A stretch of DNA of 50,803 bases, taken from Oscillospiraceae bacterium. GTDB taxonomy: Bacteria; Bacillota; Clostridia; Oscillospirales; JAGBHD01. Positions 24,054 through 43,187 of this stretch are shown here, piece by piece. Position 1 is the stretch's first letter, and every line of letters starts with the position of its first letter. A program made the translations under genes and the position numbers. Location: contig JAGBHD010000001.1 in assembly GCA_018110785.1 (NCBI GenBank), forward strand, positions 1 through 50,803, written 5' to 3'. A model generated the notes under the pieces. The model was not told where the DNA came from, did no database searches, and was given only the letters and a program-made list of their open reading frames with translations.

Positions 24054-25103
24054 ATGATTAGACGAGAAACAAAGGAAGTTAAAATATGAAAAATTAAGAT
24101 AGGCGGAAGTAATAAAATTGCCGTTCAGTCAATGCTTAATACCGATCCTCATAATATAGAAGCTTGCATAGAGCAAACAGCTCGCTTGAAAAATGCAGGT
24201 TGCGATATCGTGCGCCTTACAATTCCTGACATAGATGCCGTAAAAACTATATATGAAATAAAAAACAGCATTGACATTCCTTTGGTTGCTGATATTCATT
24301 TTGATTATCGCTTAGCTATAGCGTCTGCAGATGCAGGAATAGATAAAATAAGAATTAACCCGGGAAATATAGGGGATAAAGACAGAGTAAAACAGGTAGT
24401 TTCAAAATGCAATGAAAAGAATATTCCTATAAGAATAGGTGTTAACTCTGGTTCTTTAGAAAAAGATATTCTCTCGAAGTATGGCTCTCCTACGCCCGAA
24501 GCCTTAGCAGAAAGTACATATTCCCATATTAGACTTTTAGAAGAATTTGATTTTGATGATATAGTTTTATCCTTAAAATCATCTTCTGTTTCGTTTATGA
24601 TAGACGCCTATCGTATTATAGCCGAGCGCTGCAATTATCCCTTGCATTTAGGAGTTACCGAAGCAGGAACACGCGAGATGGGGATAATTAAATCAGCTAT
24701 AGGAATAGGTTCGCTTTTAAATGATGGTATAGGAGATACTATCCGAGTTTCTTTAACCGAGAATCCCGTAGAAGAGGTAATTGCGGCAAGAAAAATTCTT
24801 AAAGGCTTAGGATTTAAAGGATATGGTCCTCAAATTGTCAGCTGTCCTACCTGCGGAAGAACAAAAATCGATTTAATTTCTTTAGCGAAAAGGGTAGAAG
24901 CGGCTATTGAAAATATTAATAAGGATATTACCGTTGCTATAATGGGATGTGTTGTAAACGGACCTGGAGAGGCTAGAGAGGCTGACATAGGTATAGCAGG
25001 CGGAGATGGTAAGGCTGTAATATTTAAAAAAGATAAAATAGTTAAAACTGTAAATGAATCGGATATAGAGAAAGAATTAATTAAAGAGATTGACAAAATG
25101 TAA
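24054..25103 (+). CDS. ispG: IspG (HMBPP synthase) interrupted by an in-frame TGA near the N terminus
   Basis: IspG reduces methylerythritol cyclodiphosphate to HMBPP in the MEP pathway. The body is intact: NPGNIG, LHLGVTEAG and the cluster ligands CPTC and MGCVVNGPGEA are present. AGGAGA and the ATG at 24054 open the expected N terminus (MIRRETKEVKI), but the next codon, 24087-24089, is TGA. The frame continues as family sequence (KIKIGGSNKIAVQSMLNT). Homologues have Gly at this place, so a single GGA to TGA change explains it. The ATG at 24132 would give a 323-residue protein lacking the first barrel strand, and it has no clear ribosome binding site. MEP genes are otherwise intact, so a fully dead gene is unexpected. 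Confidence 0.85.
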
Positions 25104-34513: not shown

Positions 34514-35311
34514 TTAGTCGATAAAGTCTCGATTTAATTTAACATTATAAGGTTCTTCTAATTGCAAAAGCTGTTCATCAGAAATTGTCTGAAGAATGGG
34601 TTTGCCTGTATGGAGAATGTCCATATAAATTGCTGCGGATTTTTCTATGGTATGCATAAGGCCAAAGGTTGTATCGAAATTAGTTCCCATGCAGAAAATA
34701 CCATGATGTGCCCAAACAACGGCATCAAACTCTCCTACTAAAGCGCTGGTGGCTTTTGCAATTTCAACTCCACCGGGAACCATCCAAGGAAGAACGGCGA
34801 TGCCGTGAGGGAAAATGATAGGACATTCAGTCATAGTTTTCCAAAGAGCTTTTGTAAATGCCTTAGACTCCAAAGGAAGAACGAATGTTAATGCAATAAG
34901 ATGAATGGGATGCGCGTGATAAATCATTCTGTATTCGGGATTGGCGGCTTTTTTAATAGAGTGGTTTAAAAGATGGGTCGGAAATTCGCTGGTAGGACGA
35001 TCTTTTCCGTTGTTTAATCCCCATACGATGCGGTATGCATTACCTTTTTCGTTAATTTCTGTAATTCCGAGAGAAATCTCAGGCTCTAAGATAACATTGT
35101 TAAAATGTTTTCCCGTTCCGGTTGTAATGAAATACTCTCCTGCTAAATTTTCCATTTCAACATCAAGAGCAATCCAATCCCCGCCTTCTATAAAGAAAGG
35201 ACGGCAAGAATCAACCTCTTCAGGCTTCATTCTGTATGTAGCGTTACCGCCATTTCGCTCGTGCCAACCTTGAGTCCAACCGTCGTTGCATAAGCGAATA
35301 AAACCGCTCAT
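34514..35311 (-). CDS. rhaD: Rhamnulose-1-phosphate aldolase (5' end interrupted)
   Basis: A class II, zinc-dependent aldolase that splits L-rhamnulose 1-phosphate into DHAP and L-lactaldehyde. Glu109 (TSEFPTH), His132 and His134 (YHAHP) and His203 (WAHHG) match the catalytic and zinc residues of E. coli RhaD. WHERNGGN near the N terminus is conserved. The open frame starts at ATG 35311 without a ribosome binding site. In the same frame, ATG 35333-35335 has AAAGGTG seven bases before it and reads six codons to a TAA (35317-35315), two codons before ATG 35311. The original start is probably 35335, so expression now needs reinitiation or readthrough. Confidence 0.88.
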   Translation of the reverse strand: MSGFIRLCNDGWTQGWHERNGGNATYRMKPEEVDSCRPFFIEGGDWIALDVEMENLAGEYFITTGTGKHFNNVILEPEISLGITEINEKGNAYRIVWGLNNGKDRPTSEFPTHLLNHSIKKAANPEYRMIYHAHPIHLIALTFVLPLESKAFTKALWKTMTECPIIFPHGIAVLPWMVPGGVEIAKATSALVGEFDAVVWAHHGIFCMGTNFDTTFGLMHTIEKSAAIYMDILHTGKPILQTISDEQLLQLEEPYNVKLNRDFID

Positions 35312-35314
35312 AAC

Positions 35315-35335
35315 TTATGTGTCTGTAATTTTCAT
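35315..35335 (-). other. Six-codon leader frame before rhaD, ending in in-frame TAA
   Basis: It encodes MKITDT then TAA, in frame with rhaD and behind the only good ribosome binding site of the region. It is either the mutated original 5' end of rhaD or a short upstream ORF that delivers ribosomes to the ATG seven bases beyond the TAA start. Confidence 0.7.
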
Positions 35336-35366
35336 AATAAATCACCTTTCAATATATAAAATAAAT

Positions 35367-36773
35367 TTAAGCTTCGTATTTAATAAGCGTGAAAGTATCT
35401 GCAACAGCCTTTTTAGCCTCCCTAACACCAGAAAATTCGCCAAAAGCGATCATCTGAGCTAAAAGATTTCCCGTTGCAGAGCATTCTGTGGGCCCTGCGA
35501 AAACAGGAACTGAGCATTTTTTAGCGGTAAGTTCATCTAAATAATCGTCTTTGCTACCGCCTCCTACAATGTGGATAGCATTAAAACTGCGATTGGTTAT
35601 GTTTTTAAGTAAATCAAAGCACTTTTTATATTCGTTGGAAAGACCCGCATAAATAGTCTGCATAACCTCTCCAATAGATTCAGGAATTTCCATTCCCTTA
35701 TCTTTGCAGAATGCTTTTATCTCATCTATCATACTTTTGGGCGCAATAAAACGAGGATCCGAAACATCTATTGCAGATGAAAAATCAGCGTTTTCTCTAG
35801 CTAAGTAGGCAAGTTCGCCGAAGGAATATTTTTTACCGAGTTCTCTTCTTACCGACTGAACAAACCAAAGTCCGTTTATATTTTTTAGATAACGGTTTTT
35901 TCCGCCGTAACTGCCCTCGTTTGTAAAACCTGCTTTAAAGCCTTCTTCGGAAATTACAGGAGCTTCAGTTTCAATTCCGAAAATTGACCAAGTACCGCTG
36001 CTTATATAAACGATATCATCGCTCATTGATGGAACGGCAAGAACAGCCGAAGCTGTATCGTGGCTTGCAGCGAGATAAACATCTGCTGAAAAACCAACCT
36101 CTTTTGCTATTTTATCTGTAAAGGGACCAACCTTTTCGCCAGGCATACAAGGTTTTTTAAAGACATCTTCATTAAATCCGAGAATTGAAATAACCTTTTC
36201 GTCCCAATCCCCTGTTTTTATATTTAACATATTTGAGGTTGAGCACTCAGTAAACTCGTTTTTCTTAATGCCCGTAAGCAGGAAATTAAGATATTCGGGA
36301 ACCATTAAGCAAGATTTTGTCGATTTAATATCATTATTTCTGTTAAGGGAAGTTTCATAAAGCTGAAAAAGAGAGTTTATTGAGCTTGCTTGACAGCCTG
36401 TTCTCTCATAAAGCTCTTTTTCACTCATTTTTTCAAAAAATTTAGCAGGTATATCGTTAGTTCTGCTATCTCTGTAAGCGTAGCTTTTTCCGATAATCTT
36501 ATCTTCCTTATCAAGGATTACATGGTCGACACCCCATGTATCTATAGCCATCGATGAGGGAATTTTTCCTATGTCTTTACAATGCTTTAATCCTTCTATT
36601 ATGTGGTTAAATATAGCATCAATATCCCAACATAAGCTTCCCTCTATTTCTGTAATACCGTTTTCGAAACGGTAAACCTCTTCGGTAACGATTTTATTAT
36701 TCTTTTTTTCACCTAAAATAAATCGTCCGCTGGAAGCTCCGAGATCTACTGCTAAATACAGATTTTGACTCAT
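35367..36773 (-). CDS. rhaB: Rhamnulokinase
   Basis: RhaB phosphorylates L-rhamnulose with ATP, the step before the RhaD aldolase. It is a FGGY-family kinase of 468 residues. The N-terminal phosphate loop is AVDLGASSGRF (about 8-18), the substrate region IDTWGVDHV follows, and the ADP-binding loop IHIVGGGSKDDYL lies near the C terminus. The ATG at 36773 has GGGAGAG at good spacing; the longer in-frame extension is excluded. rhaD follows 55 bases after the stop. No rhamnose isomerase or transporter gene is nearby. Confidence 0.93.
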   Translation of the reverse strand: MSQNLYLAVDLGASSGRFILGEKKNNKIVTEEVYRFENGITEIEGSLCWDIDAIFNHIIEGLKHCKDIGKIPSSMAIDTWGVDHVILDKEDKIIGKSYAYRDSRTNDIPAKFFEKMSEKELYERTGCQASSINSLFQLYETSLNRNNDIKSTKSCLMVPEYLNFLLTGIKKNEFTECSTSNMLNIKTGDWDEKVISILGFNEDVFKKPCMPGEKVGPFTDKIAKEVGFSADVYLAASHDTASAVLAVPSMSDDIVYISSGTWSIFGIETEAPVISEEGFKAGFTNEGSYGGKNRYLKNINGLWFVQSVRRELGKKYSFGELAYLARENADFSSAIDVSDPRFIAPKSMIDEIKAFCKDKGMEIPESIGEVMQTIYAGLSNEYKKCFDLLKNITNRSFNAIHIVGGGSKDDYLDELTAKKCSVPVFAGPTECSATGNLLAQMIAFGEFSGVREAKKAVADTFTLIKYEA

Positions 36774-40538: not shown

Positions 40539-42072
40539 ATTTCTCCGCTTTTCCAAAGTAGAAAATTGAAAATTCAGGATTATAATAAAGATTTTTTATA
40601 TTTTTCTGTTTATAGATATATGAGTAACTTTGATAGGCAGGAATATATATAACCTCGTTTGCCAAATACTCTTTAGCATATTTAAGATATACTGCCGCTT
40701 CGTTTTCAGAATTGCTGGATTTATAATCCAAAAGAGTTGTATCGTATCCTTCATTATTAAAATTAGAATAGTTTAAATTAGAAGAAGAACTGAAGGAGTT
40801 TAAAATTGTTACACCGTTATCCTGCTTAACATCATAAGAAACTATAGCGGCATCATAATCTCCGTTTTTTAATGCTGCATTGTAATCGTTTTCTGATAGT
40901 TCGGTTATTCCAAAAAATACGCCTAAATCTCTTTGCCATACCTGAACAGCATAAGAAATTAGTTCTTTATCATTAGAACCCTCAAGGCTGATAATTTTTA
41001 TTTTATTGGTTTCTTCTTTTTTTATAAACTGTTCTGCTTCAGATAAAGCATCTTTTGCTGAAGCTTGATTGTATAAATATAGCGCGTTTTCCGAAAAGAT
41101 AAACTTATTATCTATTTCAGAATTTATCGGTAACGCTTTTTTATAGCTTTCTCTATCAAATGATAGACTTAAAGCTTTTCTTAAATCTTTGTTTGAGAAA
41201 AAGGGACTTTCGGTATTGAATAGAATGCCCGTATAATTGTTTGGAATTACCCGAATGTTACTGTTTTTATCTGTAAAGTTATTTTGCATTACATCTGTTT
41301 TTAAAGCGTCGTTACTATCCTCTGAAAACCTTGAGGCAGAAAGGTCTTTATCTTCATCAATAACAATACTTAAAGAGGCAGGAACTGTATCTGAAAGATG
41401 GTAATTCTCATTTCTTTTAAGACTAGCTGTGCTATTGTGCGACCAGCTTGTTATATGAAACGGACCATTAGTTAAAACAGCATCATATTCTAAACCATAT
41501 CTACCTTTAGTTGAAAGAAAAAACTCTTCATTACAAGGCATTGCCGCGGGATAGGTTAAATATCTTAAAAAATCTGCATCTTCGGATAATAATGATATTT
41601 TTAAAACATTCTTCCCCTCTGAGGAAACTCCAAGCTCAAACGGCAATTTTTCGCCAGATAGAACCTCTTTAGCATTTTTTATGGAAAAGTATAAATCGGC
41701 ATAAGGAGCCTTTGTTTCGGGGCTTAAAAGTCGTCTGAAAGCAAAAACAAAATCATCAGAGGTAAGCTCTCTGCCGTCAGCCCATAACAGATTATCTTTT
41801 AATAAAAATGTATAAGTGTGTGTTAATTTATCATATGAATAGCTTTCAGCCGCTGCAGGTACTACCTCGCCATCTTCAGTTAAAGAAAGAAGCCCCTCAA
41901 AAAGATTTAAAACCATAAATTCCCCGCTTTTATCTGAAACGGTCTGAGGGTCTAAGGTTATAGGCTCTTTGTCAAGATAATAAATAAATTCGGAGTCATT
42001 TTGCTTTTTGCAAGAGGTTAAAAAACCGAACATTATTAAAAGAGTTAAAGAATATGCGATTAATCGCTTCAT
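40537..42072 (-). CDS. Peptide-type ABC transporter substrate-binding lipoprotein (SBP_bac_5)
   Basis: A family 5 extracellular solute-binding protein of 511 residues, related to OppA/DppA. The signal ends in a lipobox (GFLTSCKKQ, Cys about 21). The mature part has the family segments LYFSIKNA, LLWADGRELTSDDFVFAFRRLL, NGPFHITSW and a C-terminal NxPEF-like end. It likely binds oligopeptides or similar ligands, but no permease or ATPase of this type is adjacent, so it is an orphan. Its ATG overlaps the prfB stop (ATGA), and AGGGGAAG lies within prfB. Confidence 0.88.
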   Translation of the reverse strand: MKRLIAYSLTLLIMFGFLTSCKKQNDSEFIYYLDKEPITLDPQTVSDKSGEFMVLNLFEGLLSLTEDGEVVPAAAESYSYDKLTHTYTFLLKDNLLWADGRELTSDDFVFAFRRLLSPETKAPYADLYFSIKNAKEVLSGEKLPFELGVSSEGKNVLKISLLSEDADFLRYLTYPAAMPCNEEFFLSTKGRYGLEYDAVLTNGPFHITSWSHNSTASLKRNENYHLSDTVPASLSIVIDEDKDLSASRFSEDSNDALKTDVMQNNFTDKNSNIRVIPNNYTGILFNTESPFFSNKDLRKALSLSFDRESYKKALPINSEIDNKFIFSENALYLYNQASAKDALSEAEQFIKKEETNKIKIISLEGSNDKELISYAVQVWQRDLGVFFGITELSENDYNAALKNGDYDAAIVSYDVKQDNGVTILNSFSSSSNLNYSNFNNEGYDTTLLDYKSSNSENEAAVYLKYAKEYLANEVIYIPAYQSYSYIYKQKNIKNLYYNPEFSIFYFGKAEK

Positions 42073-43187
42073 CGTATAATCTTCCCCTGGCTTAATGCCA
42101 CAAGATATGCATTGATAAATCCGTCTAAATCTCCGTCCATAACCGCGCTTACATTTCCGTTTTCAAAAGATGTTCTATGATCTTTAACTAATGTATACGG
42201 CATAAAAACATAAGAGCGGATTTGATTTCCCCAAGCAATTTCTTTCTGAACACCTTTTATATCCTCTATCTTTTCAAGATGCTCTCTTTCTTTTATTTCC
42301 ACAAGCTTTGAACGAAGCATCTTCATAGCAACTTCCCTATTCTGATGCTGACTACGCTCATTCTGACAAGCAACGATAATTCCTGTAGGTAAATGAGTTA
42401 TTCTGATGGCAGATTCGGTTTTATTAACGTGCTGTCCGCCTGCTCCGCTTGAACGATAGGTATCAACCTTTATATCCTCAGGTCTAATATCTATTTCAAC
42501 ATCATCAGGGATTTCAGGCATAACCTCTAAAGAAGCAAAAGATGTATGACGTCTGCCTGATGCATCAAAAGGAGATATTCTGACAAGCCTGTGAACTCCT
42601 ACCTCGGATTTTAAATATCCGTAAGCGTTATAACCCTCAATCAAAATAGAAGCGCTTTTAATACCAGCTTCGTCGCCGTCAAGGTAATCCAAGATTTTAT
42701 ATTTAAATCCGTGTCTTTCTGCCCATCTGGTATACATTCTATAAAGCATAGAAGCCCAATCCTGAGCCTCTGTTCCGCCTGCTCCTGCATGAAATGTTAA
42801 GATAGTATTGTTAGCGTCATATTCTCCGTTTAAAAGGGTTGCTAAACGCTGTTCGGAAATATCTTTTTCTAACTTAGCGATAGATTCCGAAATTTCGGGA
42901 ACATATGATTCATCTTCTTCTCCGTCAGCTATTTCAATCATAGCTTCCGCATCATCGTATTCAGATAGAAGCGAATTAAAAGCAGCGATTTTATCTTTAT
43001 TAGCCTTTATTTCTTGAAGTACCTTTTGGGAATGCTGTAAATCGCTCCAAAAATCTTCCTTTGAAGATTCTTCCTCCAATTTTTTAACTAAGGCTTCTGC
43101 TTCTTTTAAATTAAGAGCCTCGTTTAAATTGTCTATCTGGGGCTTTAATTCTTTTAATTTTTGCAATAATTCTTCGTAAATAAGCAT
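42069..43187 (-). CDS. prfB: Peptide chain release factor 2
   Basis: RF2 ends translation at UGA and UAA. The 372-residue protein has helical domain 1, the anticodon-mimic SPF (ISPFDA) for stop recognition, and the GGQ loop (SGAGGQHVNKTESAIR) that triggers hydrolysis. Most bacterial prfB genes carry a programmed +1 frameshift at a UGA near codon 25, but here the frame is continuous from ATG to stop. It lies between an ABC exporter (11 bases upstream) and the peptide-binding lipoprotein gene, which overlaps it. GGAGAAG precedes the ATG. Confidence 0.96.
   Translation of the reverse strand: MLIYEELLQKLKELKPQIDNLNEALNLKEAEALVKKLEEESSKEDFWSDLQHSQKVLQEIKANKDKIAAFNSLLSEYDDAEAMIEIADGEEDESYVPEISESIAKLEKDISEQRLATLLNGEYDANNTILTFHAGAGGTEAQDWASMLYRMYTRWAERHGFKYKILDYLDGDEAGIKSASILIEGYNAYGYLKSEVGVHRLVRISPFDASGRRHTSFASLEVMPEIPDDVEIDIRPEDIKVDTYRSSGAGGQHVNKTESAIRITHLPTGIIVACQNERSQHQNREVAMKMLRSKLVEIKEREHLEKIEDIKGVQKEIAWGNQIRSYVFMPYTLVKDHRTSFENGNVSAVMDGDLDGFINAYLVALSQGKIIR

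Follow-up and report, generated by a model that had tools for sequence, protein, structure and literature searches.

A premature TAA at codon 7 of rhaD in an Oscillospiraceae genome assembly, most likely a point mutation or a sequence error

The gene for L-rhamnulose-1-phosphate aldolase, rhaD, carries an in-frame TAA at its seventh codon (35317–35315, minus strand) in the Oscillospiraceae assembly studied here. We analysed it within a window of 50,803 nucleotides (contig JAGBHD010000001.1, positions 1 to 50,803), and comparison with relatives makes it very probable that the TAA is a single-base nonsense substitution in a gene that ancestrally started at the ATG at 35335. In all likelihood the stop reflects a common point mutation or a sequencing or assembly fault and not a control device, a reading favoured because the position is read through in every distinct relative compared and because similar stops occur elsewhere in the genome. 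It is an ordinary lesion, a premature stop in one ancestral frame. Between a real variant, either fixed in the organism or confined to a strain, and an error of the assembled sequence, we estimate that the balance tips slightly towards the real variant.

On the minus strand, the 5′ end of the gene runs from 35350 as G AAAGGTG ATTTATT ATG AAA ATT ACA GAC ACA TAA GTT ATG AGC. A Shine-Dalgarno sequence, AAAGGTG (35343–35349), is followed after 7 nt by the ATG at 35335 (35333–35335), five codons, the TAA (35315–35317), a GTT and a second ATG at 35311 (35309–35311), which is codon 9 of the ancestral rhaD and a possible restart codon. All of these lie in one frame, which runs on from ATG 35311 to a TAA at 34514; the spacings and the codon number are those given in the original prediction. 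The first start and the stop delimit a six-codon ORF, MKITDT (35315–35335). Upstream on the same strand is rhaB (35367–36773), encoding rhamnulokinase (TIGR02627, 477 bits), which starts at ATG 36773 with a Shine-Dalgarno energy of −8.7 kcal/mol. The last base of its stop codon, 35367, lies 31 nt upstream of ATG 35335. Ribosome-binding sites were scored as duplex energies with a generic 16S 3′ end. On this scale the site of ATG 35335 reaches −6.9 kcal/mol, which equals the median over the window's gene starts and is a strength attained by only 4% of all ATGs, whereas ATG 35311, which has no Shine-Dalgarno of its own, scores +0.4 kcal/mol, a value equalled or bettered by 78% of random ATGs. The only good ribosome-binding site does, as had been claimed, precede the upstream ATG.

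Beyond codon 7, the remaining 265 codons (34514–35311, minus strand) are uninterrupted and carry no further lesion. The encoded protein scores 286 bits against the NF002963 equivalog model, above the cut-off of 170 and thus within RhaD, 281 bits against the stricter TIGR02624, under its cut-off of 401, and 217 bits against E. coli RhaD (1gt7). Residues matching E117, H141, H143 and H212 of the E. coli enzyme, its zinc ligands and catalytic glutamate, are present in the 1gt7 alignment, and E109, H132, H134 and H203 of the rhaD product are invariant in the alignment of relatives. The aldolase body is therefore intact with all its catalytic residues, in agreement with the original prediction. With the stop read through, the profile match begins at position 2 and not at position 13, and its score rises from 286 to 291 bits. 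Since the match extends through the stop and the relatives align there, the six codons before the stop are a genuine RhaD 5′ end. A structure model of the read-through protein (pLDDT 87) places residues 1–10 confidently and starts helix 1 at residue 7. With E. coli RhaD and the NF002963 family, rhaD thus shares the aldolase body over its full length, the catalytic residues and an N-terminus that is homologous as far as the ancestral start. Unlike in the E. coli gene, however, the frame from the native start is broken by a TAA at codon 7, and unless suppression or restart occurs, translation would yield no more than a six-residue peptide.

To place the stop among its relatives, RhaD loci were gathered from the order, the class and GTDB contigs, and duplicates were removed, leaving 129 distinct relatives. 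The search of GTDB contigs returned 80 loci with an alignment as query and none with the single window protein. The relatives compared all lie outside the family of this genome. The frame is open across the stop position in all 129 relatives, and 127 have an ATG, GTG or TTG near the position of ATG 35335. From these two counts it follows that rhaD has an ancestral upstream start with a premature stop behind it. Relatives that start only at the equivalent of 35311 had been named as evidence that would speak against the original prediction; instead, those 127 start upstream. Among the 139 loci scanned, the window included, the window's rhaD is the sole case of a stop at this position. The residue found there varies (P in 36 relatives, K in 31, E in 23, D in 12, and others). 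In every relative the codon is a sense codon, most commonly AAA (23) or GAA (18), which supports the earlier proposal that a single base change turned a sense codon into the stop.

The closest relatives align on both sides of the lesion. In the four closest of the order search, 66–68% identical, the segments MSIFDTEVMKGYIRM, MSIFDTNVMQGYIRL, MSIFDTNVMQGYIRL and MATIFDTEVMQGFIRL stand against MKITDT*VMSGFIRL in the window (the asterisk marks the stop). These four proteins start with MSIFDTEV, MSIFDTNV, MSIFDTNV and MATIFDTEV, so that MKITDT aligns with MSIFDT or MATIFDT, and the pattern of the nearest relatives, MSIFDT[E/N]VMxGYIR, corresponds to MKITDT*VMSGFIR. In the DNA alignment, ACA TAA GTT ATG in the window lies opposite ACC GAA GTA ATG in relatives. 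Opposite the TAA, four of the six close relatives aligned (L026, L029, L106 and L030) have GAA, and the other two have AAT or AAC. Both flanks align with these intact genes without gaps, in protein and in DNA, including at the start codon, as a nonsense mutation would require. The exact ancestral codon under the TAA we infer from relatives of which the nearest are 68% identical in protein.

The same comparison bears on whether MKITDT could be a functional leader ORF, selected to control rhaD by termination and reinitiation. The arrangement has the parts that such a device would need, namely a good ribosome-binding site and a stop 3 nt before the restart ATG; in addition, ATG 35311 lies inside a predicted 8-bp stem, which may hinder independent initiation there. 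However, the stop occurs in none of the 129 relatives, and 104 of them have no methionine at the restart position, which in relatives is an internal residue (V in 64, M in 25, I in 20, L in 15 and A in 5), so that leader, stop and downstream start are not conserved together. The peptide is a plain RhaD N-terminus, the fold around the restart ATG is ordinary against shuffled sequences (z = −1.0), and the pattern at 35309–35350 occurs once in the genome in a search that allowed up to three mismatches. We therefore consider a selected leader very unlikely, and the second of the two readings originally offered, a real mini-ORF feeding reinitiation, finds no support as a conserved arrangement.

Comparable lesions occur elsewhere in the genome. 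We sampled 40 stretches of the genome, 704 kb including the window, to which all counts of stops and frameshifts below refer, and scanned for stops across which a coding frame continues with no ribosome-binding site after them, curating the candidates by eye. Six premature stops were retained, in rhaD, ispG, tlyA, a citrate synthase gene, an ABC transporter ATPase gene and a glycosidase-like gene. The ispG gene lies within the window (24054–25103, plus strand) and has a TGA at codon 12 (24087–24089). It starts from a good ribosome-binding site at ATG 24054 and reads MIRRETKEVKI, TGA, KIKIGG, and its TIGR00612 match starts at profile position 1 and crosses the stop, where typical IspG sequences have Gly. 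The other four are a TGA in tlyA (L207:12568), a TAG at codon 13 of citrate synthase that is confirmed by relatives (L219:19692–19694), a TGA in the ATPase gene (L220:12195–12197) and a TAA in the glycosidase-like gene (L204:179). Among the other window genes with family models, no match ran through a stop.

These cases lend weight to the possibility that the assembly is wrong at the TAA, through an error arising from sequencing or from the consensus of a strain mixture, while the organism's own rhaD is intact. We regard this as a serious possibility, somewhat short of an even chance. The 704-kb sample holds six premature stops in conserved genes and no frameshifts, the four hits of a frameshift scan of uncalibrated sensitivity being read as normal gene junctions. 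ispG, which is essential in the MEP pathway, is single-copy in the genome, and its next ATG, codon 27, lies beyond conserved sequence and lacks a ribosome-binding site. That the lesions are substitutions and not frameshifts, and that one of them hits the single copy of ispG, suggests assembly errors. Two other genomes of the order each have a single stop of this kind in about 363 kb. Likely premature stops in two genomes of the order lie in a pemK/mazF-like gene (L239:234, genome G018) and in a pyruvate phosphate dikinase-like gene (L281:15291, genome G131), both genes being named from sequence only. We found no useful published work on such stops in genomes assembled from metagenomes.

Random errors should not cluster at the 5′ ends of genes, yet three of the six stops (rhaD codon 7, ispG codon 12 and citrate synthase codon 13) fall in codons 7–13, where simulation puts about 3% of detectable positions. 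The clustering has P = 5e-4 for all six stops and 0.009 without rhaD, the case that prompted the look; with eye-curated cases and a small sample, we treat it as an indication only. It would fit a lineage that tolerates and accumulates early stops near gene starts, with restart supplying enough of a shortened protein, but we think this improbable. Both rhaD and citrate synthase have ATG as the second codon past the stop.

Several conserved genes in which the sequence continues in the same frame past a stop could also suggest readthrough of stops, or their translation into an amino acid, by codon reassignment or by a suppressor tRNA. No single meaning fits, however, because TAA, TGA and TAG fall on different residues. 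Relatives point to Glu, Asn or Lys in rhaD and to a variable position in citrate synthase, while the surrounding sequence suggests Gly in ispG, Arg in tlyA, Gly in the ATPase and Tyr in the glycosidase. Genes in the window end in TAA (34), TGA (7) and TAG (5), release factor 2 is present, and no tRNA with a stop-reading anticodon is among those found, in an incomplete tRNA set. Stop reassignment was rejected because the replaced residues differ and all three stops end genes, and recoding of any kind is extremely improbable here. The release factor 2 gene itself, prfB (42069–43187, minus strand), can be read from its ATG in a single uninterrupted frame and apparently lacks the programmed frameshift that is known in prfB from other bacteria.

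Alternatively, rhaD could have become a pseudogene only recently, in a rhamnose pathway that is being lost. The genome contains rhaB and rhaD, but searches for an L-rhamnose or L-fucose isomerase with models for rhaA (TIGR01748), rhaI (TIGR02635) and fucI (TIGR01089) found none in an assembly of 63 contigs that is rated 97.5% complete. In close relatives, by contrast, the gene immediately upstream of rhaD encodes an L-rhamnose isomerase, an assignment made by profile in L026. If the isomerase is truly absent, selection on rhaD may be relaxed. Yet the 265 codons after the stop have stayed free of lesions with the catalytic residues kept, rhaB is intact, and the isomerase may sit in an assembly gap or belong to another family. 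Decay of the pathway is thus a less probable account of the stop, though one that keeps some weight.

A real nonsense mutation in rhaD need not abolish the enzyme. Ribosomes would load at the good site and terminate after six residues, and some would then restart at ATG 35311, 3 nt past the stop. The product would be a 265-residue aldolase, made in reduced amount, that lacks residues 1–8 and with them the beginning of helix 1. Such restart, predicted from the sequence, is plausible as an accidental rescue. Bacterial precedents for reinitiation at a nearby internal methionine behind a stop within an ORF are given in PMC6728339, with reference to Karamyshev 2004, where the internal stop was artificial, and to Adhin and van Duin 1990. 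As described there, these termination-reinitiation systems share with rhaD an ORF-internal stop soon after the normal start and, 3 nt past the stop in rhaD, an in-frame methionine without its own Shine-Dalgarno. They differ in being engineered constructs, whereas rhaD is a natural sequence from an assembly in which restart is a prediction.

For rhaD itself the finding is of little consequence, as it concerns one point lesion, in a gene for catabolism, in a single bacterial genome. It does matter for annotation. Gene callers would set the start of rhaD at 35311 and so hide the lesion, and, as the cases of ispG, tlyA and citrate synthase illustrate, starts without a ribosome-binding site can expose premature stops in genome assemblies. 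Should reads bear out the 5′ clustering, the affected genes would form a naturally occurring collection in which to study how translation restarts behind an early stop, and if the lineage does tolerate such stops, its genome would show in nature, and on a genome-wide scale, that reinitiation can make nonsense codons tolerable.
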